Source: Acidobacteriota bacterium
GTDB taxonomy: Bacteria > Acidobacteriota > Vicinamibacteria > Vicinamibacterales > UBA2999
Direction: 5' to 3'
DNA: 32,139 bases
Assembly: GCA_021731165.1 (NCBI GenBank)
Contig: JAKFXY010000013.1
Span: forward strand, 1 to 32,139
In this document: in pieces, positions 13,824-26,853 of the stretch
Layout of the letters: each line of letters begins with the position of its first letter
How positions within the stretch are numbered: position 1 is the first letter of the stretch
The notes under the pieces: generated by a model
What the model was told of the DNA's origin: nothing
The model's input: only the letters and a program-made list of their open reading frames with translations
Database searches by the model: none
Position numbers and translations under genes: made by a program

Positions 13824-15104
13824 TCATTCCGCGTTGAGCGTCTTCTGTCCGATATCCCGCCGAAACTGCATTCCCTCGAACCGTATGTGCGAAACCGCAT
13901 CGTACGCCACGTCAATGGCAGCACGGTAGGTGGACCCGCTACCCACAACCGTAAGCACGCGCCCACCCGCTGTCACGAGATTGCCGTCGTCACGCGCGGT
14001 CCCCGCATGGAAGATAAGCGCGCCTGGCACCCTTTCAGCAACGTCGAGACCCGTAATGACTTTTCCATTCTCCGTGGAATCTGGATAGCCACCGGCCGCA
14101 ATCGCCACCGCGACGTGCGGAACCGAGCGGAAGCGGGCCGGACGCGATGGCAAGACACCTGTCGCGGCTGAGGCGAGAAGCCAGGATAGATCCTCGTCGA
14201 GCATCGGGAATACGACTTGTGCTTCGGGGTCGCCGAACCGGACGTTGAACTCCACCACCCGAGGGCCGTCGGCCGTCAACATGAGCCCCACGTACAAGAA
14301 GCCGCGAAACGGGTGACCCTCCTGCGCCATACCTTGCAGAACAGGCTGGACGATCTCAGCGACGACGCGCCGCTCTACGTCGGCCGTGACGAGCGGGCTC
14401 GGCGCGAAAGCGCCCATGCCGCCTGTATTGGGGCCACGGTCGTCGTCGAGGAGCCGCTTATGATCCTGGGCAGAGGAGAATGCGACGAACTGTGTATCGT
14501 CGGCGAGCACGAAGTAGGACGCCTCGTCGCCCACCAGAAATTCCTCGATGACGATGCGCTCACCGGAAGCGCCGAACCGACGATCGATCATTGCCGCCCC
14601 GATCGCCGACTCCGCTCCCGCCCGATCTTCCGCGATGACTACGCCCTTGCCCGCCGCAAGCCCGTCTGCCTTGATCACCACCGGGTAGCCAAATTCGCCC
14701 AGGGCGATCGTCGCCAAAGCATCGCCGGCTGAAGTGCAAATCTTGAAGCGAGCGGTTGGAACCCGGTGCCGGGCCATGAAATCCTTTGCGAATGCCTTGC
14801 TCGACTCAAGGGCGGCGGCCGCCCGGGTCGGACCGACAATCGGCATACCACGCTCTGTGAAGACGTCAACCACGCCGCAACTGAGGGGGAACTCCGGTCC
14901 CACCACCGTCAACTCGACGTTTTCGCGGGTCGCAATCTCCGCCAGTTCGAGCGGGTTGCCCACATCAGCCGGCAGACACCTGGCCACCGCGGCGATGCCG
15001 GGATTCCCTGGAGTGCAAAGGACGTCTGAGACATCTCGCTCGCCTGACAGCTTCCAGGCAATCGCGTGTTCGCGGGCGCCGCTGCCTACAACGAGAATCT
15101 TCAT
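13824..15104 (-). CDS. purD: Phosphoribosylamine-glycine ligase
   Basis: 426 aa; MKILVVGSGAREHAIAWKL, KADGLAAGKGV, GGMGAF, VVEFNVRFGDPEAQVV. Confidence 0.97.
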   Translation of the reverse strand: MKILVVGSGAREHAIAWKLSGERDVSDVLCTPGNPGIAAVARCLPADVGNPLELAEIATRENVELTVVGPEFPLSCGVVDVFTERGMPIVGPTRAAAALESSKAFAKDFMARHRVPTARFKICTSAGDALATIALGEFGYPVVIKADGLAAGKGVVIAEDRAGAESAIGAAMIDRRFGASGERIVIEEFLVGDEASYFVLADDTQFVAFSSAQDHKRLLDDDRGPNTGGMGAFAPSPLVTADVERRVVAEIVQPVLQGMAQEGHPFRGFLYVGLMLTADGPRVVEFNVRFGDPEAQVVFPMLDEDLSWLLASAATGVLPSRPARFRSVPHVAVAIAAGGYPDSTENGKVITGLDVAERVPGALIFHAGTARDDGNLVTAGGRVLTVVGSGSTYRAAIDVAYDAVSHIRFEGMQFRRDIGQKTLNAE

Positions 15105-16009: not shown

Positions 16010-16363
16010 ATGCAGATCGAGGAACGCGCGGCTGGCGATGTGACGCTGCTGGACCTGAAAGGCAAGTTGACCCTTGGCGAGGGCGACGAGCTCCTCAAGG
16101 ACAAGATTAACAGCATGATCCAGCAAGGGCAGCGCAAGATTGTCCTGAACCTCGCGGAGGTCCCGTACATCGACAGCGCCGGTCTCGGTGAGATCGTGCG
16201 GACCTACACGACCATCAGCCGCCAGGGCGGCCAGTTGAAACTGCTCAATCTTACGAAGCGAATCACCGATCTCCTGTCGATCACGAAGCTGCTGACGGTC
16301 TTCGACACCTACGATACCGAGGCTGACGCCGTCCGGAGCTTCTCCTCCTCGGCGCCGGTCTAG
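16010..16363 (+). CDS. STAS-domain anti-sigma factor antagonist-like protein
   Basis: MQIEERAAGDVTLLDLKGKLTLGEGDELLKDKI...IVLNLAEVPYIDSAGLGEIVRTYT; conserved DSAGLG. Confidence 0.92.
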   Translation: MQIEERAAGDVTLLDLKGKLTLGEGDELLKDKINSMIQQGQRKIVLNLAEVPYIDSAGLGEIVRTYTTISRQGGQLKLLNLTKRITDLLSITKLLTVFDTYDTEADAVRSFSSSAPV

Positions 16364-16374
16364 GCGGCGGCGCC

Positions 16375-17319
16375 GTGGCCGTGCGCTCACCGCTAGCGGC
16401 GTCTGCCCCAAGCCCCGCGGCCTCGAACGATTCCTCCGTCGCCCTCATCATCCGCTCGCTTCGACCAGCGCAGTGGACCAAGAACCTATTCGTATTCGCC
16501 GGGCTGGTGTTCGGCAAGCGGCTGACCGACGCCGGCGCAGTTGGGGCGGCGATCGCCACGTTCGGCATCTTCTGTGCTCTATCGGGCGCGGTCTACCTGT
16601 ACAACGATGTCTCCGATCGCGCCGCCGATCAGGCGCATCCGTTGAAGCGCTTTCGCCCCATCGCCTCCGGCCGCCTCTCAACGCGCGTGGCGCTGGTCAC
16701 GGCGGCCGGCCTTGGCGGAAGCGCGGTTGGCGCGGCGTGGCTGATCTCGCCAACCCTCGCCCTCGTCAGTGGCAGCTATCTCGCATTCCTCCTCTTGTAT
16801 TCGGCGGTCCTGAAGCACATCGTCATTGCGGATGTCCTGACCATCGCGTTTGGCTTCGTCCTGCGAGCCGTGGCCGGTGCCGTAGCCGTGGCTGTCCCCA
16901 TCAGTGACTGGCTACTGATGTGCACGACGCTGCTGGCGCTGTTTCTTGCGCTGAGCAAGCGACGACACGAACTGACCTTGCTCGCTGATAGCGCCGGTGG
17001 CCACCGGCCCATTCTCGAGGAGTACACACCGTATCTCCTCGACCAGATGGTCGGCGTGGTGACGGCGTCCACACTCGTGGCGTACGCGTTCTACGCCATC
17101 AGCGCCGACACGGCCGAGAATCTGGGGACCGACCGGCTTATTCTGACCGTTCCATTTGTGCTCTACGGCATCTTCCGATATTTGTACCTAGTGCACCAGA
17201 AGCATGGTGGCGGCAGCCCCGCAGAATTGCTGCTGACAGATCGGCCGTTGCTGGCCTGCGTCGGGCTGTGGATTGTGACGCTCGTTCTGCTCCTGTATAC
17301 CCCGCTTGGCGGACGATAG
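16375..17319 (+). CDS. UbiA-family prenyltransferase, decaprenyl-phosphate phosphoribosyltransferase-like
   Basis: RPAQWTKNLFVFAGLVFGKRL; YLYNDVSDRAADQAHPLKRFRPIASG resembles the DPPR synthase NDxxDxxxDxxHPxKRxRPIASG pattern; multiple hydrophobic segments. Confidence 0.85.
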   Translation: MAVRSPLAASAPSPAASNDSSVALIIRSLRPAQWTKNLFVFAGLVFGKRLTDAGAVGAAIATFGIFCALSGAVYLYNDVSDRAADQAHPLKRFRPIASGRLSTRVALVTAAGLGGSAVGAAWLISPTLALVSGSYLAFLLLYSAVLKHIVIADVLTIAFGFVLRAVAGAVAVAVPISDWLLMCTTLLALFLALSKRRHELTLLADSAGGHRPILEEYTPYLLDQMVGVVTASTLVAYAFYAISADTAENLGTDRLILTVPFVLYGIFRYLYLVHQKHGGGSPAELLLTDRPLLACVGLWIVTLVLLLYTPLGGR

Positions 17320-17329
17320 GGATTTACGT

Positions 17330-18454
17330 ATGACTACGGTAGTTGAGACGCCTCAAGAGTCGCTCGGTGCGAACGCCTCGGCAACGGCGCGCGTGGCCGT
17401 GGTTCGCACGCGCCCTGACACCGTCCTCGAGGACTACGCACGAGTCATGGAGCTGGCCGGGTACCGCAACACGCTGTCACCCGATCGGGACACCCTCATC
17501 AAGCTGAACCTGTCATGGACGAAGTACTTTCCCGCGTGCTCGTCGCAGCCGTGGCAAGTCGATGGCGTCGTCGGCAAGATGCTCGCGGACGGGTTCCCGC
17601 GCGAGCGGCTCATCCCGATCGAGAACAAGACCGTCGTCACCGATCCTCGCGTGGGCTGCAGGAATAACCGGTGGGAGCCGGTGCTAGAGCGTCACGGTCT
17701 GACCTTTATACCGCTCCCGGAGGTTGAGTGGCGGGTGTACCCGTTCAAGAGCCCGCTACTCAAGCTCAACGAGATCTTTCCTGAGGGCATCCAGATTCCA
17801 GCCATGTACCCCGGCCGACAGATTCTCCACCTGCCGACGGTCAAGACCCACGGTCATGCCGTAATGACCGGCTCGGTGAAGAACTCCTTCGGTGGGCTGC
17901 TGCGTGAGGTCAGGCATTACGCGCACAAGTACATGCACGAGGTTCTCGTGGACCTGCTGTACATGCAGCGGGAGCTGCACCCGGCGGTGTTCACAGTGAT
18001 GGACGGCACGATCGCCGGCGACGGAGCGGGACCGCGCACGATGATCCCACGCGTCAAGAACCTTCTCCTCGCGGCATCGGATTCGGTGGCCATCGACTCG
18101 ACGGCCGCGCGTCTCATGGGCTTCGACCCGCTGTCGATCCCGTTCCTGCGGATGGCGCAAGAGCGCGGCCTCGGCGTGGCCGATCCTCGTCGCATTGAGA
18201 TCGTCGGCGACGACGTGTCGATGGAAAACTTTGGGTTTCAAACCAAGCGATCGCTGGTCGTCTGGGGCGACCAGATGATCCGCAAGGGCTTCCTGCGTCC
18301 ACTCGAACGGATTCTTCTCCACTCGCCCTTGGTGGTGTGGGCGCCGTTTGCGTCGAATGTGTATCACGACATGATGTGGTACCCCACGGTCGGGCGGTCC
18401 CGTATCCGGGACTTCATGCAGACCGAGTGGGGCGCCCTTTTCCGAAAGTACTGA
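17330..18454 (+). CDS. DUF362 domain-containing protein
   Basis: ATG at 17330; LKLNLSW, LPTVKTHGHAVMTGSVKNSFGGLLRE, VMDGTIAGDGAGPR, AASDSVAIDSTAARLMGFDP. No Fe-S Cys cluster seen. Confidence 0.85.
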   Translation: MTTVVETPQESLGANASATARVAVVRTRPDTVLEDYARVMELAGYRNTLSPDRDTLIKLNLSWTKYFPACSSQPWQVDGVVGKMLADGFPRERLIPIENKTVVTDPRVGCRNNRWEPVLERHGLTFIPLPEVEWRVYPFKSPLLKLNEIFPEGIQIPAMYPGRQILHLPTVKTHGHAVMTGSVKNSFGGLLREVRHYAHKYMHEVLVDLLYMQRELHPAVFTVMDGTIAGDGAGPRTMIPRVKNLLLAASDSVAIDSTAARLMGFDPLSIPFLRMAQERGLGVADPRRIEIVGDDVSMENFGFQTKRSLVVWGDQMIRKGFLRPLERILLHSPLVVWAPFASNVYHDMMWYPTVGRSRIRDFMQTEWGALFRKY

Positions 18455-18458
18455 CGCG

Positions 18459-19652
18459 ATGGACCACCATTCACAGGGCCGACGTCCGCACTCCCACAGG
18501 GGCCGTCGCGGTCCGGACCGCCGCAATCCGGATCGCCGCCAGCCGCCGCAACCGGAACGGGCTGGTCGCGGAGGGGACCAGGTCGACGTGGAGCAGATCA
18601 TGCGCGACATCCGTGCACGGATCGCCACGAGTCACGGCATCGATCTCACCTCCCAGCAGATTCAGGAGCTCGCCGCACGGCGCCTAGAGGCGATCCTCGA
18701 TCCGCGAACGATGAAGCCGGGGCTCCTGGATCAGCTCCGCAAGGGCGCGGGCGTGCCTCGTCAGGCCGAGCCGGATTCACCGCGGCGCGCCGCGCCGTAC
18801 ACGTTCGACGAGACGTCACTGTATGAATCACATCGCGGACTGCTGCGATTCATCCGATCGCTTCTGAAACCGGTCCTCAAGCTTTTCCTCAACCCGGCCC
18901 CGCTGGTCACCGCGCTGAAGACGCAGGTCACCCTCAACGCGGAAGCGGCCGCGCGTGAGGACGACAACGATCGCCGTCAAGCGGAATGGAATGCGCTGCA
19001 CTATGAAGTGCTACAACGCGTGGTAACGGAGACGGCGCGTGTGAGCATCGAGTTGCAGAGCCTGTCGATGCACGTCGAGTCACTCTCCGGGAAGGTGGAC
19101 TTCAACGATCGGCGGGTCCGGGCGATGGAAGGCGCCTCGCCCCTACAGTCCAGGGCTGCACTGCGGCAGGTCGAGCCGTACGCCGCCGCGCCGCCGCGCC
19201 ATCAGGTCGTCGCATCCGACGTCGCCGAGGTGCCCCGTTCCGCCGCTGACGATCGCCCTGCTCCCGAAGACGTGCGGATGCCCGATGAACTCCAGGCCGG
19301 CGATGCGGTGAGGCCAGCTGACGGCCGGCCCCGCCGCCGACGCCGGCGGCGGGGCCGGCGCAGCGCCACCCCATTAGGCGAGACCCCGCCGACCTCCACA
19401 GCCGGAGTCCCTGACTCGGTTAGTCTGGCGGGCGGGCGGGAAAGCGAAGACGCGGACGAGGATACCGAGGCACCCATGAGCGCCAACGAAGTGGCCTGGG
19501 GAACCGCTGAAACTCCGGCTGTATCCACGGTGGCTCTCACGGACGCCACTCCGACCCCTCAGTACGAGGAATCAGAGCCCAGAACTCCAAGCGTGCCAGC
19601 GGCCGTCCCGGAGGCCGGGGACCGGTCGGAGCCCGGAGCCACCGAGGGGTAG
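18459..19652 (+). CDS. Hypothetical protein: conserved helical/coiled-coil segment with Arg-rich and disordered flanks
   Basis: 397 aa; QVDVEQIMRDIRARIATSHGIDLTSQQIQELAARRLEAI core; low-complexity Arg/Pro/Glu-rich ends; collinear with neighbours (4-bp gap to the DUF362 gene). Confidence 0.75.
   Translation: MDHHSQGRRPHSHRGRRGPDRRNPDRRQPPQPERAGRGGDQVDVEQIMRDIRARIATSHGIDLTSQQIQELAARRLEAILDPRTMKPGLLDQLRKGAGVPRQAEPDSPRRAAPYTFDETSLYESHRGLLRFIRSLLKPVLKLFLNPAPLVTALKTQVTLNAEAAAREDDNDRRQAEWNALHYEVLQRVVTETARVSIELQSLSMHVESLSGKVDFNDRRVRAMEGASPLQSRAALRQVEPYAAAPPRHQVVASDVAEVPRSAADDRPAPEDVRMPDELQAGDAVRPADGRPRRRRRRRGRRSATPLGETPPTSTAGVPDSVSLAGGRESEDADEDTEAPMSANEVAWGTAETPAVSTVALTDATPTPQYEESEPRTPSVPAAVPEAGDRSEPGATEG
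19324..19359. repeat. Perfect 16-bp GC hairpin inside CDS
   Basis: GCCGGCCCCGCCGCCG-ACGC-CGGCGGCGGGGCCGGC, all 16 bp complementary, 4-nt loop. Confidence 0.9.
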
Positions 19653-19689
19653 CGCCCTCCGGGTCGGGATCTCCTGAACTGATCGAGGC

Positions 19690-21000
19690 ATGAAGCTGGC
19701 GATCGTCGTGCAGCGGTACGGCACCGATATCAATGGCGGCGCCGAGCTGCACGCGCGCTACGTAGCCCAGCATCTGGCTCGCCACGCCGACGTCCGTGTG
19801 CTCACGACCTGCGCACGTGACTACGTGACATGGCGGAACGAAGTGCCTTCAGGCGAGGAACGGGTCAACGGAATTCCGGTGGAGCGCTTCCCTGTGAGGC
19901 ACGAGCGTGATCTGCGCGATTTCGGCCCGCGCTCAACGCATGTCTTCACTCGTCCGCACTCGCTCAACGACGAGTTGCGGTGGCTCGAAAGCGAAGGGCC
20001 CGCCAGCCCCACCCTGATCGCACGTGTGCGGAAGGCGCACCGCGACTCCGACTTCGTGCTGCTGTTCAGCGCACGTTACTATCAGGCCTATCACGGTGCG
20101 CGGGTTGCGGCTGATCGGGCGATCCTGGTTCCCACGGCCGAGCGCGAACCCGCGGTCGGCCTGAGCATGTTCGGACCGATCTTCCGGGGCGTCCGCGCCC
20201 TCATGTACAACTCGCACGAGGAACGAGCGCTCATCCAGGGATTGTCCGGCAATCACGACGTGCCGGCCGTCGTGGTGGGTGTCGGCTCGGAGATACCTGC
20301 TCGCACCGAGCCCGGTCGTGCCCGGCAGAAGTTCGGCCTGCACGGACCGTTCATCATCTACGTCGGCCGAATCGATGCGAACAAGGGCTGTGGGGAACTG
20401 TTCGATTACTTCTTGAAGTACCTCGAGCGATCCGGCCGACCCTTGACGCTGGCGCTGATCGGTCACCCGGTCATCGACATTCCGGTTCACCCCCAGATTA
20501 GGCACCTGGGCTACGTCTCGGACCAGGACAAGTTCGACGCCATCGCAGCCAGCGAGGCGCTCATCGTGCCCTCCTACTACGAGAGCCTGTCAATGGTGGC
20601 GCTCGAGGCGTGGGCACTCGGGCGACCGGTCATCGCCAACGCGGCCTGCGACGTCCTGCTCGGTCAGTGCCTTCGCAGCCACGCAGGGTTGTACTATGAC
20701 GACGCCTTGGAGTTTGCCGGCATACTTGATGCGGTGATCGACGACCCCGGTTTGGCCGCCGCGCTGGGGGCAAACGGCCGTGAGTTCTTCGCCAGCCATT
20801 ACAGCTGGCCTGTAGTCGAGCGGAAGTACCTGGACATGTTTGATCGACTGACGGCCGAGCCCGCGGCGCGGCGGATGGAGCCGCTTCCTGGATGGCGTGC
20901 GCGGCGGATGAGAACACTACCCGCGGCCGCCGAAGTGGTCGAGCGGATACCTACTGGCCCCGCCGAGTGGCGTCCGGCAGCACGAGGATCCGATCAGTGA
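19690..21000 (+). CDS. Glycosyltransferase family 4 (group 1) protein
   Basis: 436 aa; NGGAELHARYVAQHLA, IYVGRIDANKGCGELFDYF, VPSYYESLSMVALEAWALGRPVIA (canonical EX7E and Lys). Confidence 0.9.
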   Translation: MKLAIVVQRYGTDINGGAELHARYVAQHLARHADVRVLTTCARDYVTWRNEVPSGEERVNGIPVERFPVRHERDLRDFGPRSTHVFTRPHSLNDELRWLESEGPASPTLIARVRKAHRDSDFVLLFSARYYQAYHGARVAADRAILVPTAEREPAVGLSMFGPIFRGVRALMYNSHEERALIQGLSGNHDVPAVVVGVGSEIPARTEPGRARQKFGLHGPFIIYVGRIDANKGCGELFDYFLKYLERSGRPLTLALIGHPVIDIPVHPQIRHLGYVSDQDKFDAIAASEALIVPSYYESLSMVALEAWALGRPVIANAACDVLLGQCLRSHAGLYYDDALEFAGILDAVIDDPGLAAALGANGREFFASHYSWPVVERKYLDMFDRLTAEPAARRMEPLPGWRARRMRTLPAAAEVVERIPTGPAEWRPAARGSDQ

Positions 21001-22262
21001 GATTCGCGTTCATCACCCCGCGCTATGGCGCGGAAATCAGCTCCGGGCCTGAGCATGCGTGTCGGCTGCTGGCCGAGCAGATGGCACAACGACATGACGT
21101 GGATGTCATCACGACCTGCGCGCGTGACGCCGCCACGTGGAAGAACGAAGCCGCGGAAGGACCCGACAAGATCCGCGGCGTCGTCGTGCGGCGGTTCACT
21201 GTGACTCAGCCGCATGATGCCGCGGCCTTCGAGGCGCTGACCTTACGCCTTCAGAATGCTCCTCCGTCGAGAGCCGATGAGCTCGAATGGGTGCGTCAGC
21301 TCGGGCCATGGTCGCCAGGATTGATCGAGCATCTCAAGCGCCAGCACCGGACGTACGATGCCCTGGTCTTCTTCTCGCTGCACCACGCAACCACGGTCCA
21401 CGGCTTAGACATCGCGCCTGACCGCTCCGTGCTCTTTCCCTACGCTCAACTTGGTCCGGTCCTTCGTTTTGGCCTCTGGGTCGACGTGTTTCGCAAGCCC
21501 CAGGGTGTTGGTTTGTTGTCAGGCGCCGAACGCCGCTTGATCCGCGAATACGTGCACGTCACGCCGGCACATGAGGAGCTCGTTGGGATCGGCGTAGACC
21601 CGTCGCCACAGCAGACCTACCCTCGCCACCAGCAGGATCCCGCCGACGTCGTTGCCGATGAAGACGCCTCCGTGGAGACCGATGGACAGGAGGAGGTCGG
21701 CTACCTGGGCGGACGGGGAATCCCCTTCCGCAGGCGCCATCGTCTGTACGGACCCATCCTCCTGTACGGCGGCCGGGTCGAACCGGACAACGGCTGCGAG
21801 GAGATGTTGGATTACTTCCATGCCTACGCGGCCACTGACAGAGACACCGCGCTCGTGCTGATGGGCGCGAAGATGATGAAGATCCCTGAGGAGGAATACG
21901 TCAAGCTCGCAGGAGTTCTGCCCGCTGGCGAACGCATGGTGGCATATGAGGCGGCTGAGGTCACGATAACGCCGGCATCGGACGATCTCCTCGCGGAGGC
22001 GCTCATGGAGAGCCTCGCCGTGGGAACGCCCGTGCTCGCCAGTGCGCGAAACGAGGCAGCCGTCGAGCACTGCAGGTGCGCCAACGCCGGACTGTATTAC
22101 GCCACTCGGGACGAGTTCGTAGAAGGGCTCCGCCTGCTCATGACCAACACAAAGCTGCGCGAACGGCTCGGCGAGAACGGCCGACAGTACGTCCGTCAGC
22201 AGTATCTGTGGGACGCGGTGATGAGCAGGTTCGAACGTCTGGTCATGCGGCCCCGGAAATAG
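20997..22262 (+). CDS. Glycosyltransferase family 4-like protein, divergent paralog
   Basis: GTG start at 20997 overlapping the upstream TGA; VRFAFITPRYGAEISSGPEHACRLLAEQMAQ, YGGRVEPDNGCEEMLDYF, GTPVLASARNEAAVEHCRCANAGLYY; clear similarity to the preceding GT. Confidence 0.85.
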   Translation: MRFAFITPRYGAEISSGPEHACRLLAEQMAQRHDVDVITTCARDAATWKNEAAEGPDKIRGVVVRRFTVTQPHDAAAFEALTLRLQNAPPSRADELEWVRQLGPWSPGLIEHLKRQHRTYDALVFFSLHHATTVHGLDIAPDRSVLFPYAQLGPVLRFGLWVDVFRKPQGVGLLSGAERRLIREYVHVTPAHEELVGIGVDPSPQQTYPRHQQDPADVVADEDASVETDGQEEVGYLGGRGIPFRRRHRLYGPILLYGGRVEPDNGCEEMLDYFHAYAATDRDTALVLMGAKMMKIPEEEYVKLAGVLPAGERMVAYEAAEVTITPASDDLLAEALMESLAVGTPVLASARNEAAVEHCRCANAGLYYATRDEFVEGLRLLMTNTKLRERLGENGRQYVRQQYLWDAVMSRFERLVMRPRK

Positions 22263-22263
22263 C

Positions 22264-23730
22264 TCACTCGCGAGCCAGTCGCGCCGCGTGCTGTGCGGCC
22301 TTGGACCGCGCGGCCGACTCCTCCTCCAAGGCCTGGTCGGACTTCTTCCGGCGAGTGCCGATTTCGTACCTCTTGATCATCTCGTTCAACGTGGTTGGCT
22401 TGATGCCGAGTAGCTCAGCGGCCCGCTTCTGTACGCCGCCCGCGGCCTCGAGCGTCGACTCGATCAGTCGCTTCTCCACGCTCGTGACGACATCCTTGAA
22501 CGAGATACCCTCGGGTGGAACGACGAATGGCGGAATCTGGAACTTCGCCGGCGTCCGCACGTGATCCGGAATGAGGTCCAGGCCGATCTTCGCACCTGAA
22601 CTGAGCACCACCGCTCTCTCCATGACGTTCTCCAGCTCTCGCACATTCCCAGGCCAGTCGTACTCAATCAGCAGGTCCAGCGCATCACCCGCCAACTCGA
22701 GCCCCGGCCTCTGATTCTCCTGTCCGTACTTCTCGAGGAAATAATGCGCGAGCAGCGGGACGTCTTCCTTGCGCTCGCGCAGTGGCGGCAGCAGGATGTT
22801 GATCACGTGCAAGCGGTAGAAGAGGTCCTCCCTGAATCGTCCGTCCTCGACCATCTCCCGAAGATCGCAGTTCGTTGCGGCAATGATGCGCACATCGACC
22901 TTGATGGTGTCCATGCCTCCAAGGCGCATGAACTCCCGCTCCTGCATCACGCGTAGCAGCTTGGCCTGTGTCTCCAGGGAAATATTGCCAATCTCGTCGA
23001 AGAAGATGCTCCCCTTGTCGGCCCTGTCGCACAGTCCCTTCTTGGGATAGACCGCTCCCGTAAACGCCCCCTTGACATGCCCGAACAACGTGGATTCGAG
23101 CAGGTCCGGTGGCAGATTGCCGGAATTCACGGTCACGAACGCGCGATCGGCGCGCGCCGAGTTCGTGTGGATCGCTCGCGCGACGAGCTCTTTGCCGGTG
23201 CCGCTCTCACCGGTGATTAGAATCGTCGAGCGACTCGGCGCCGCCTGGATAATCAAGTCGAACACTTGCTTCATCCGCGAACTTCGCCCGATGATTCCGG
23301 CAAAGCGCTGTGACTGCGCCTGCAGATTCTGTCGGAGCGCGGTATTCTCGGCCATCAACCGGCGACGCTCGACGGCGTTGCGGACGACGACGAGGACCTC
23401 GTCATTCTTGAACGGCTTGGTGATGTAGTCGAAGGCACCGCGCTTCATCGCGGCAATGGCGGTCTCGACAGACGCGAACGCCGTAATCATCAGTACCGGC
23501 AGATCGTCGTCGTTCTTCTTCAGCCCGTCGAGCGTGGCAATGCCGTCCATCCCCGGCATCATGACGTCCACGATGGCCGCGTCGAACGGTACCGATCGTG
23601 CCAGCTCAATTCCCTCCGCGCCGTCCACGGCAAGACGAACGTCGTACCCTTCTCGCGTGAGGAGCGTGTCGAGGATCTCGCGCATGATCTCCTCGTCGTC
23701 AATGACCAGAACGGAGCCCTTGCGCGCCAT
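22264..23730 (-). CDS. Sigma-54-dependent response regulator (NtrC family)
   Basis: Start MARKGSVLVIDDEEIM at 23730; receiver DVMMPGMDG, GESGTGKELVARAIH Walker A, GAFTGA motif, C-terminal Fis-type HTH. Confidence 0.95.
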   Translation of the reverse strand: MARKGSVLVIDDEEIMREILDTLLTREGYDVRLAVDGAEGIELARSVPFDAAIVDVMMPGMDGIATLDGLKKNDDDLPVLMITAFASVETAIAAMKRGAFDYITKPFKNDEVLVVVRNAVERRRLMAENTALRQNLQAQSQRFAGIIGRSSRMKQVFDLIIQAAPSRSTILITGESGTGKELVARAIHTNSARADRAFVTVNSGNLPPDLLESTLFGHVKGAFTGAVYPKKGLCDRADKGSIFFDEIGNISLETQAKLLRVMQEREFMRLGGMDTIKVDVRIIAATNCDLREMVEDGRFREDLFYRLHVINILLPPLRERKEDVPLLAHYFLEKYGQENQRPGLELAGDALDLLIEYDWPGNVRELENVMERAVVLSSGAKIGLDLIPDHVRTPAKFQIPPFVVPPEGISFKDVVTSVEKRLIESTLEAAGGVQKRAAELLGIKPTTLNEMIKRYEIGTRRKKSDQALEEESAARSKAAQHAARLARE

Positions 23731-23743
23731 CGACACCCAGTCC

Positions 23744-26656
23744 TCAGTGCCGTGCCGCACGGGCCGCCAGCTGGGCTGGCGCGGTGGGAAGGGAGAGAGT
23801 GAAACGGGTACCATGGCCAGGACCACTCTCGCAGTCGATCAAGCCATCGTGTTCGCGCACAATGCCGTAGGTAATCGACAGACCGAGGCCCGTGCCCTGT
23901 CCGATCGACTTCGTCGTGAAAAACGGATCGTAGATGCGAGCCAGGTGCTCACTGGGAATCCCTGAGCCCGTATCGGCCACCTCCGCAATCGCTCGACCGT
24001 CATCGATTCGAGTCGAGACCGACAACCAGCCGCCTTTCGGCATCGCGTCCTTGGCATTGAGAAACAGGTTGAGAAACACCTGCTGCAGCTTGTGTTCGAT
24101 GCCACGTACGATGAGAGGTTCAGACGCAAGCTCTCGCCGCATCTTGATGCGGTGAATTTCGAACTGATGCTCGAGCAACGACAGCACGTCGGTGATCACC
24201 ACGTTGACGTCCACGGTAGTCAGATCGGAGGCCCCGATTGCGGCGGGCCGCGAGAGGTTCAGCAGTCCGTTGACAATCTTCGCGGCACGAAAGGTCTGAC
24301 GCTCGATCTTCTCGAGCAGGCGCGTGCGGGGGTCCTCCGGGTCGGCGCCTTCCAGAAGCATCTGCGTGAAACTGGAAATGCCGGTCAGCGGCGTGTTCAC
24401 CTCGTGAGCCACCCCGGCCGCCAACAGACCGATTGACGCCATCTTCTCGGAGATCTGCAACTGCTCCTCGAGCTGCACACGGCGCGTGATGTCCTCGACA
24501 ATCACGATTGTCCCGACCGTGGTCATCGCTGCGTCCGCCGACGCGCGCAGCGGCACTACCGACGCATTGACGATGATCGTGCGCCCCTCGCCGGCCGAAC
24601 GGCCGGCCAGCGGAATTCGCGAGAGAGTCGTGCCGCGAGGACAGTCGCGGCGTGCCGCCCGGACCGCTTCAACGAATGGCGGGGCGAACATGTCGTGGAG
24701 ATGGCGCCCGACGGACTCGCTGCGAGACACGCCGTACAGCTGTTCAAGTGCGTGGTTCCATCGGACGATTCGATCGTCGAGATTGACGACCAAGAGGCCG
24801 TCATCCAGTGACTCGAGGATGTTCTCATTGAAGCTGTGGAGCCGATCGAGTTCATCCGCCTTGACGTGCAGCTGCCGGTAGAGACGCGCATTCTCGAGCG
24901 CCGTTGCTATCTGACCGGCCACGGTCGCGAGCAACCCCATGTCCTCACTATTCAGCGGCCTGCCGGTAGCCTTCCGGCCAAGCGCGATGATGGCGATCGT
25001 GCCTTCCTTCGCCACACATGGAACGAAGTAGTACAGCCCGGCATCGCGCCAGAACTCGATCTCTTCGACTGGGAAGCGACTGACGGCCATCGGATCGTCG
25101 AGTGCCACGGTATGACCATCGCCAAGGCGTGTGCCGAGACCGGACTGTCGGGATAGTTCCGGCGGATGGCCATCACTAAAGCCCGACGCGCGAACGGAAC
25201 GGAAGTGTGGCTCTATCTCGTCATCGAGCATGAGGGCCATGCGATCGACAAGGAGGGTCTCTACGACACGCGAGACGAGGCGTTCGGCCAGCCGGTTCAG
25301 ATCGAGGTCGCTGTTGAGGTCACGGGCAAACCCGACAAGCGCACGGCGGTAGTCGTACCGATCGCGGTAGAACGCACGATCGAGCAGGCTCTGCATCGCT
25401 TCCTTCACCGGGGGCGCGAGCAGGAGTGCCACCAGGGTTGCGAGCACCGCGATCAACCAGTTGTGTCCGGTGTCGCCCTTGAGGAGCACCCGCTCCACGG
25501 CCTGCAGAAGAATCGCGTAGATCGCGACGATCGCCGAGAGCGCTGCTACGTATACCAGCGCGCGTTTGACGATGACCTCCACGTCCATCAGGCGATAGCG
25601 AACGATCGCCGAGGCGTACGCGAGCGGAATCAGACTCAACGGGATGGCTGACAATTGCATCGGCAGCGACGGCTCAATGCCAAAGGCATACGGCAGCGCA
25701 TATCCGAGCGCGAACGGCGTTGCCCCCAGCGTGGTACCCCAGGCAATCCAGCTGAGCTGTCGGCGTCCGGTGATCGAGCGAACCTCGGCCAATGCTCGGC
25801 CGAGGATGGCGAGGCCGCCGATGAAGGATACGGCCAGGTAGAAGAGCTCAATTCGATCGAGCGTCTCGATCAACCGAATGAACACCGGCGCACCCAGGCC
25901 ACCACGCGCAACCGCCACGACCCGGGCGGCGCCGAGCACGGCGGCCGGCACATAGAGCAGCGGGATGATGGTGCGGCCGGGCGAACCGGCGGTCCAGCGT
26001 CGTTCGCGCTCGGGAAAGATCAGTGTGAAGTGCAGGAAGAGCGGCGGGAGCAGCAACGTGGCCACGACGTCGCCCCAGTAGAAGATCCAATCCAGACGAT
26101 CGAGCCGGCCGCTAAAGGAGAATGTGAACAGGCCGAAGAAGGCGACCGATAGCCAGAAGAAGTGCAGCGTGGCCGGGTCGCGCGGGCGGCGGAGACGCAC
26201 GGCCCCGCCGATGATCAGCGTGAAGATGCCGACGCCCGCGAGCAGAAAGTAGAACGCGCCTGGGGCGTTGGGAATCGGGGCGACACGTACCTCGATGACT
26301 TGCGGCGAACCGAGGCGGAAGACGGTATATCGAACCAAGTCCCCGGCAGCGGCCGCGTGGAGAGCTCTGACCACGTCATCGACCGCCTGGACCGGACGGC
26401 CGTCAATGGCCAGGAGAACGTCCCCGGCCATGAGGCCGGCAACGGCCGCCGGGGTATGTGGTGCAATCTCTCCGACAACGACGCCTTCGGCTCGATGCGC
26501 CCAAAGGACTCCGTCCTCGAACTCATTCCAGGTAGCCACGGTCGCCACGTTTGCCACACCAAGACAAAGCAGCACAGCCACGACGACGGCCGGAAACACC
26601 GGTTGATGCCATCGCGCTAAGTCCAAGGCGCCGGTAAAAGAGCGGATCGCCGTCAT
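23744..26656 (-). CDS. Membrane sensor histidine kinase with N-terminal PDZ, GAF and PAS domains
   Basis: Likely start MTAIRSFTGALD at 26656; PDZ-like VVGEIAPHTPAAVAGLMAGDVLLAIDGRPV; multi-TM block; HisKA AAGVAHEVNTPLTGI; HATPase LFLNAKDAMPKGG, DTGSGIP, GTGLGLSITYGIV. Confidence 0.92.
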   Translation of the reverse strand: MTAIRSFTGALDLARWHQPVFPAVVVAVLLCLGVANVATVATWNEFEDGVLWAHRAEGVVVGEIAPHTPAAVAGLMAGDVLLAIDGRPVQAVDDVVRALHAAAAGDLVRYTVFRLGSPQVIEVRVAPIPNAPGAFYFLLAGVGIFTLIIGGAVRLRRPRDPATLHFFWLSVAFFGLFTFSFSGRLDRLDWIFYWGDVVATLLLPPLFLHFTLIFPERERRWTAGSPGRTIIPLLYVPAAVLGAARVVAVARGGLGAPVFIRLIETLDRIELFYLAVSFIGGLAILGRALAEVRSITGRRQLSWIAWGTTLGATPFALGYALPYAFGIEPSLPMQLSAIPLSLIPLAYASAIVRYRLMDVEVIVKRALVYVAALSAIVAIYAILLQAVERVLLKGDTGHNWLIAVLATLVALLLAPPVKEAMQSLLDRAFYRDRYDYRRALVGFARDLNSDLDLNRLAERLVSRVVETLLVDRMALMLDDEIEPHFRSVRASGFSDGHPPELSRQSGLGTRLGDGHTVALDDPMAVSRFPVEEIEFWRDAGLYYFVPCVAKEGTIAIIALGRKATGRPLNSEDMGLLATVAGQIATALENARLYRQLHVKADELDRLHSFNENILESLDDGLLVVNLDDRIVRWNHALEQLYGVSRSESVGRHLHDMFAPPFVEAVRAARRDCPRGTTLSRIPLAGRSAGEGRTIIVNASVVPLRASADAAMTTVGTIVIVEDITRRVQLEEQLQISEKMASIGLLAAGVAHEVNTPLTGISSFTQMLLEGADPEDPRTRLLEKIERQTFRAAKIVNGLLNLSRPAAIGASDLTTVDVNVVITDVLSLLEHQFEIHRIKMRRELASEPLIVRGIEHKLQQVFLNLFLNAKDAMPKGGWLSVSTRIDDGRAIAEVADTGSGIPSEHLARIYDPFFTTKSIGQGTGLGLSITYGIVREHDGLIDCESGPGHGTRFTLSLPTAPAQLAARAARH

Positions 26657-26853
26657 GCTTCGACTGAATTGGGCTGAGGTACGCACCTCGGCACCCGATG
26701 AGGGAGCAATCGGTATACCAGCGCGAGGATCAGGGTTTTTCGCGTAAATCACTATAAATAAGTCTCTTATCAGCGGCTCTCACATCAAATAGCGTCCACG
26801 GATCCAACTGAAGGGAGTAGATATTCAACTTTTCGGAGACGCCGTCGAAAGAC

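Follow-up and report, generated by a model that had tools for sequence, protein, structure and literature searches.

The window analysed here is a stretch of 32,139 nucleotides that forms one contig (C29) of G000, a 3.0-Mb genome assembly, 86.7% complete, of an Acidobacteriota bacterium from the order Vicinamibacterales (UBA2999; GenBank assembly GCA_021731165.1, contig JAKFXY010000013.1). Open reading frame (ORF) calls, made with a codon-usage-based caller, and domain searches reveal a packed block of six genes, all on the plus strand, which encode in this order a STAS-domain protein, a UbiA-family protein, a DUF362 protein, a protein that we call gene 4 and two family 4 glycosyltransferases, GT4a and GT4b (Table 1). 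An earlier note, made from the letters of this DNA alone, had described six such genes with gaps of 11, 10, 4 and 37 bp and one 4-bp GTGA overlap. All six ORFs are real and lie where that note placed them, and the sequence and a comparison of start codons give the same spacing. Close relatives have matching start codons for DUF362 (17330) and gene 4 (18459), and the start of GT4b at 20997 is backed by the sequence and by relatives of similar length. A promoter and terminator scan, which is a weak method, gave no promoter-like site within the block. The product of gene 4 matched no Pfam or NCBIfam family.

Table 1. Features of the window, with positions counted from its first nucleotide.
Feature	Position	Strand	Support
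STAS-domain protein, SpoIIAA-like, 117 aa, first gene	16010..16363	+	PF01740 62.4 bits, TIGR00377 73 bits
UbiA-family protein, probable polyprenyl-phosphate phosphoribosyltransferase (PPPRS/DPPR synthase), 314 aa	16375..17319	+	UbiA Pfam 77 bits, NF008977 309.6 bits
NDxxDxxxD motif of UbiA (N77, D78, D81, D85)	16603..16629	+	invariant in 87/87 aligned homologues
DUF362 protein, 374 aa, predicted LarA-like fold	17330..18454	+	PF04015 75.4 bits
Codons of DUF362 His174, Lys184 (17879-17881) and His199	17849..17926	+	spacing as LarA His/Lys/His
Gene 4, 397 aa: conserved helical N-terminal part (DVEQIMRDIRARI...), basic/disordered C-terminal part	18459..19652	+	
GT4 glycosyltransferase a (GT4a)	19690..21000	+	PF13692/PF00534
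GT4 glycosyltransferase b (GT4b), GTG start	20997..22262	+	PF00534 46.8 bits
AtoC-like sigma-54 response regulator and PDZ-GAF-PAS histidine kinase, convergent border outside the transcript	22264..26752	-	
purD, conserved left border	13824..15104	-	

Judging from its sequence and its predicted structure, the UbiA protein very probably transfers phosphoribose to polyprenyl phosphate. It passes the cut-off of NF008977, the NCBIfam equivalog model for DPPR synthase (309.6 bits, cut-off 234), and that of NF008978 (221.6 bits, cut-off 207), while the heme O synthase model gives 28.9 bits against a cut-off of 210 and the prenyltransferase families stay far under their cut-offs. A sequence search of the PDB returned Rv3806c as the sole match (8j8j, E 1.3e-39). 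The same structure is the top fold match of an AlphaFold2 (AF2) model with a pLDDT of 92 (E 5e-13, TM 0.78/0.84), and the archaeal UbiA prenyltransferases rank behind it. In the alignment, the Rv3806c contacts R22, K28, Y70, N73, D77, K87, R90, Y138 and K143 are kept as R30, K36, Y74, N77, D81, K91, R94, Y142 and K147; these residues line the site for phosphoribosyl pyrophosphate (PRPP), where they contact the 5'-phosphate, the pyrophosphate and Mg, K28 and Y70 being those that bind the 5'-phosphate (PMC10994848), and the NDxxDxxxD motif holds Mg-PRPP in Rv3806c (PMC10994848, PMC11127046). Among the changes, Y157 of Rv3806c is Phe in the window protein, a residue that also occurs in mycobacteria, and K208 is Pro. 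The DPPR-synthase-like UbiA of the earlier note is thus confirmed by family score, best fold and a PRPP site that is nearly all kept, and the comparisons that the note had proposed, of the active site and of the grouping, both come out on the side of DPPR synthase, away from the menaquinone and heme prenyltransferases. Score, residues and fold together rule out a menaquinone, heme or archaeal-lipid prenyltransferase. The nearest named relatives are found in Aminicenantes and other Acidobacteriota; a quick tree places the window protein inside the order's own clade, its deeper placement being unsure owing to long branches. The same genome encodes a second phosphoribosyltransferase, a fusion of a HAD phosphatase with UbiA (locus L103, contig C105, 2968-4503; PRK08238, 563 bits), which is clustered with genes of the sugar transferase, polysaccharide deacetylase-like, FemAB-like and GT2 types.

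The UbiA gene is present in 54 of the 59 genomes of the order (G000-G058). We examined 39 neighbourhoods of core-type UbiA genes in further genomes of the window's family and order, excluding one locus with a different UbiA (L097). A STAS gene accompanies UbiA in 38 of them, with the phosphorylatable serine motif DSAGL kept in 36 of these 38, and a gene-4 homologue is found in all 39; GT4a occurs in 33/33 neighbourhoods with enough DNA. On the left side purD and bS21 are conserved throughout (39/39), and on the right the convergent AtoC-like regulator is found in 23/39, most of the remaining neighbourhoods ending before they reach it. STAS, UbiA, gene 4 and GT4 genes are also retained in a second order of the same class (two genomes, L138 and L139). 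With this conservation in 39 neighbourhoods and in another order, the block is a core, class-wide locus and no strain peculiarity. Synteny, which the earlier note had left to be checked for all six genes, holds across the order and largely in the second one for STAS, UbiA, gene 4 and GT4a; it does not extend to DUF362, which lies inside the block in only 24/39 neighbourhoods (most of the other 15 genomes carry it elsewhere), nor to the number of GT4 genes. Most of the order has two extra, related GT4 genes between GT4a and GT4b (L069, L077, L089), which the window and its close kin lack. The kinase that borders the block order-wide together with the AtoC-like regulator (23744-26752 in the window) has an N-terminal PDZ domain ahead of its GAF and PAS domains, and a similar kinase/regulator pair adjoins UbiA in Aminicenantes loci (L031, L033, L045).

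In the window, DUF362 lies directly downstream of UbiA, and the two genes are associated well beyond it. In a survey of 247 Acidobacteriota genomes, in which DUF362, UbiA and LarC were counted, UbiA is present in 64/68 genomes with DUF362 versus 45/179 without (p 1.9e-24). By coordinates, the two genes adjoin each other in 26 of the 64 genomes that have both, from 15 families, and the pair recurs in a planctomycete locus and in a Margulisbacteria locus. The DUF362 protein can with good confidence be placed in the same pathway as UbiA.

A second association points to a cofactor. The LarA superfamily comprises 2-hydroxyacid racemases and epimerases that depend on the nickel-pincer nucleotide (NPN). 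Among the surveyed genomes, the NPN biosynthesis protein LarC is present in 66/68 with DUF362 versus 117/179 without (p 2.5e-8); the difference persists within genomes that have UbiA (62/64 with DUF362 versus 28/45 without, p 2.9e-6) and when families are counted (27/28 versus 13/23, p 1e-3). No link between UbiA and LarC is seen among genomes without DUF362 (p 0.72). The genome of the window encodes LarB (C32, 293 bits, cut-off 175), LarC (C36, 459 bits) and LarE (C11, 308 bits, cut-off 150), all above cut-off, and LarA was not found in it. In other Acidobacteriota, DUF362 is divergent to and adjoins larB in one genome (G051), shares a short contig with larB in another, with one gene between them (G070), and lies about 6.5 kb from it in a third (G096). 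Apart from larB in one family, the neighbourhoods of DUF362 genes situated away from UbiA have no recurring partner. Across the order, larB, larC and larE are nearly universal and LarA (PF09861) occurs in 20/59 genomes. Because of this disparity, NPN users besides LarA and DUF362 likely exist in the order.

The distribution of DprE1 suggests which step DUF362 may perform. The mycobacterial decaprenylphosphoryl arabinose (DPA) pathway consists of the UbiA protein Rv3806c, the phosphatase Rv3807c, DprE1 and DprE2, DprE1 being a drug target. PF04030 was abandoned as a detector of DprE1: it proved too insensitive, missing a genuine DprE1 encoded beside a different UbiA in G053 (E 6e-77 to the PDB DprE1; 365 bits in NCBIfam, below the strict cut-off of 500), and this protein served as the query instead. 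It detects DprE1 in 7/59 genomes of the order; in the genome of the window, 86.7% complete as it is, DprE1 was found neither with PF04030 nor with this query, DprE2 alone not having been searched for. DUF362 and DprE1 never occur together: DUF362 is present in 0/7 genomes with DprE1 versus 41/52 without (p 9.3e-5), a comparison made post hoc, once the pattern had been noticed after the searches. The exclusion is also seen when the comparison is limited to the window's own genome and assemblies with a completeness of 90% or more (p 4.9e-5) and when genus-state units are counted (p 6e-4), and kinship, as read from genus and family codes, perhaps reduces the exchanges to four or five independent ones. 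The core UbiA is retained in 5/7 genomes with DprE1. Outside the class, G091, which lacks both DUF362 and LarC, encodes a 535-aa fusion of DprE2 to a phosphoribosyltransferase (L156, 9407-12345) with DprE1 adjoining, and this arrangement ties DprE1/DprE2 to the UbiA family of the window within the phylum. DUF362 thus appears to behave as a substitute for DprE1/DprE2.

The predicted structure of the DUF362 protein points to the LarA family. Its AF2 model, built from an alignment of 22 homologues (pLDDT 86, pTM 0.86), has six Foldseek matches in the PDB with E<=0.001, all of them members of the LarA family with a probability of 1.00 but a TM of only 0.40-0.45, and ranks 7-10 are likewise LarA. 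A sequence search of the PDB with the protein gave no match. It is matched by PF04015 and not by PF09861, the LarA N-terminal model, and for that reason we do not class it as a LarA; it also has extra C-terminal helices. DUF362 and LarA belong to the same Pfam clan, CL0471 (PMC11770544). A His/Lys/His signature, H174-x9-K184-x14-H199, is invariant in 22/22 close members and recalls H163-x9-K173-x15-H189 in the LarA proteins of these genomes, the His-to-Lys and Lys-to-His steps being 10 and 15 in DUF362 versus 10 and 16 in LarA. The pattern H-x9-K-x13..16-H is present in 8/11 distant DUF362 proteins, against a background of 9/482 other ORFs of similar length. When deeper alignments are compared with hhalign, it is this His/Lys patch that is picked, H174 and K184 lining up with the LarA residues (P 0.0065). 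In LarA, the NPN is carried on a lysine, a histidine is a nickel ligand and further histidines are catalytic (PMC12611868). By their spacing, H174, K184 and H199 would correspond to the second catalytic His, the NPN-linking Lys and the Ni-ligand His, respectively, and the model and the co-occurrence with NPN biosynthesis lead us to infer that DUF362 is a LarA-fold, NPN-carrying enzyme. A second LarA-like group (L220-L227; 420-590 aa), which matches the later part of PF09861 only, has the same His-Lys-His spacing.

Compared with known systems, the first step of the block is of a known kind: by family, fold and PRPP-site residues, the UbiA protein is the same first enzyme as in the mycobacterial DPA pathway, and some relatives carry DprE1/DprE2 as well, as in the G091 fusion. 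The block differs from that pathway in having DUF362 in place of DprE1 and in containing no arabinosyltransferase. The three-component pentofuranose systems of Citrobacter youngae O1/O2 consist of a PPPRS-PRP protein, a MATE flippase and a GT136 glycosyltransferase of the GT-C type (PMC11127046). They too feed an envelope glycan through a polyprenyl-phosphate phosphoribosyltransferase, but the block has neither a fused phosphatase nor a MATE flippase nor a GT-C gene and has DUF362 and GT4 genes instead; the Citrobacter-type HAD-UbiA fusion is present separately in the same genome, at L103. On these tests, the block belongs to neither system.

We propose that UbiA makes a lipid-linked ribose, that DUF362 depends on NPN and takes the place of DprE1/DprE2 and that the GT4 enzymes build the acceptor glycan, a reading to which, taken as a whole, we give an even chance of being right. 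UbiA would convert PRPP and polyprenyl phosphate into polyprenyl-phosphate ribose 5-phosphate, a strongly supported step that corresponds to the reaction of the family (PMC10994848, PMC11127046). A phosphatase would then take off the 5'-phosphate, the HAD-UbiA fusion of L103 being one possible source. By analogy with LarA, DUF362 would carry the NPN on Lys184, and a hydride would be removed and returned at C2 (or C3), epimerizing the lipid-linked ribose. The exchange of DUF362 with DprE1 favours C2, and the product would most likely be lipid-linked arabinofuranose, one enzyme doing the work of DprE1 and DprE2. The flipped sugar may finally be used by a GT-C enzyme encoded outside the block, on a cytoplasmic glycan made with the help of the GT4 enzymes; PMT-type GT-C genes adjoin UbiA in Firmicutes, Dehalococcoidia and other Acidobacteriota. 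That DUF362 forms a new branch of NPN enzymes, a single polyprenyl-phosphate ribose epimerase replacing the FAD/NAD pair DprE1/DprE2, with relatives that could be the missing NPN users of the many genomes having larBCE and no larA, is a more tentative idea, which we place somewhat short of an even chance. Our guess is that the STAS protein is a regulator or switch and the product of gene 4 a membrane-side scaffold for the GT4 enzymes. The earlier note had suggested a pathway for a lipid-linked pentose or another envelope glycan; the lipid-linked pentose is well supported by synteny and by the identity of UbiA, and the final pentofuranose may be arabinose, ribose or another sugar.

Several observations weigh against this proposal, and some of them suit other explanations. 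The ribose contact Q135 of Rv3806c is Leu in the window UbiA. The genomes are related metagenome assemblies, compared with no phylogenetic correction, so the p-values overstate independence. LarC occurs in many genomes having neither LarA nor DUF362, and within the order (59 genomes) its association with DUF362 is not significant (p 0.36); LarC was dropped as simple proof of DUF362 dependence on both grounds. The structural overlap of DUF362 with LarA in Foldseek is partial (TM 0.40-0.45, 9-13% identity), and a narrow hhalign comparison of the two profiles is not significant, the deeper one reaching only the P value given above. Phosphatase, flippase and GT-C are all absent from the block according to domain searches at the locus, the rest of the genome not having been searched for these. 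Both DUF362 and DprE1 are missing from six genomes with UbiA, two of which are single-contig genomes from one genus (G037, G049), and an epimerase is therefore not always needed. Such genomes would be expected if lipid-linked ribose were used directly for ribofuranose side chains, with no epimerization and with DUF362 acting on the completed glycan or in some other place. C. youngae O1 is known to use undecaprenyl-phosphate ribose directly (PMC11127046), and the rarity of DprE1 in the order and the failure to find it in the window's genome agree with such direct use, but neither the mutual exclusion of DUF362 and DprE1 nor the tight linkage of DUF362 to UbiA would then be expected. We regard this alternative as unlikely, although it is the most serious one.

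In the DUF362 sequence, KxNxSW and ENxTVV stand where LarA has its DxTR motif and first catalytic His, neither of which has an evident counterpart. This leaves room for a protein with a degenerate LarA fold that serves the pathway and is no NPN epimerase, for example the missing 5'-phosphatase or a binding or handling protein. Such a role would fit the strong linkage to UbiA and a block that has no phosphatase; it fits poorly with the association with LarC, the exclusion of DprE1 and the preserved Lys/His spacing, and it seems to us less probable still. That the block holds unrelated housekeeping-type genes kept together by descent, with UbiA and the GT4 enzymes in separate pathways, is improbable: although purD, bS21 and the two-component genes on its flanks are conserved to the same degree and UbiA lies apart from GT4 genes in other classes, the genes are tightly spaced on one strand and the order STAS-UbiA-gene 4-GT4 is kept in two orders while DUF362 and two GT4 genes vary.

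The proposal that DUF362 is an NPN-dependent epimerase bears on a gap in the biology of this cofactor. About 15% of surveyed prokaryote genomes are reported to possess larB, larC and larE but no larA, leaving their NPN user open, and a user with a fold distinct from that of LarA has been expected (PMC11796402). DUF362 would depart from this expectation, differing from LarA in sequence and resembling it in fold. A previous study used DUF362 merely as an outgroup (PMC11770544), and in the literature searched, with subscription papers largely outside it, we found no function assigned to DUF362 and no link to DprE1. The protein is a concrete, clonable candidate NPN user with a predicted substrate. 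Even if the conservative part of our reading alone holds, the first enzyme of the locus is assigned and DUF362 gains a pathway partner. If the whole reading is true, there would be a second chemical route to lipid-linked arabinofuranose, at a step targeted by drugs in mycobacteria (DprE1), and a core envelope-glycan locus would be defined for soil bacteria of a major group that has been little studied.

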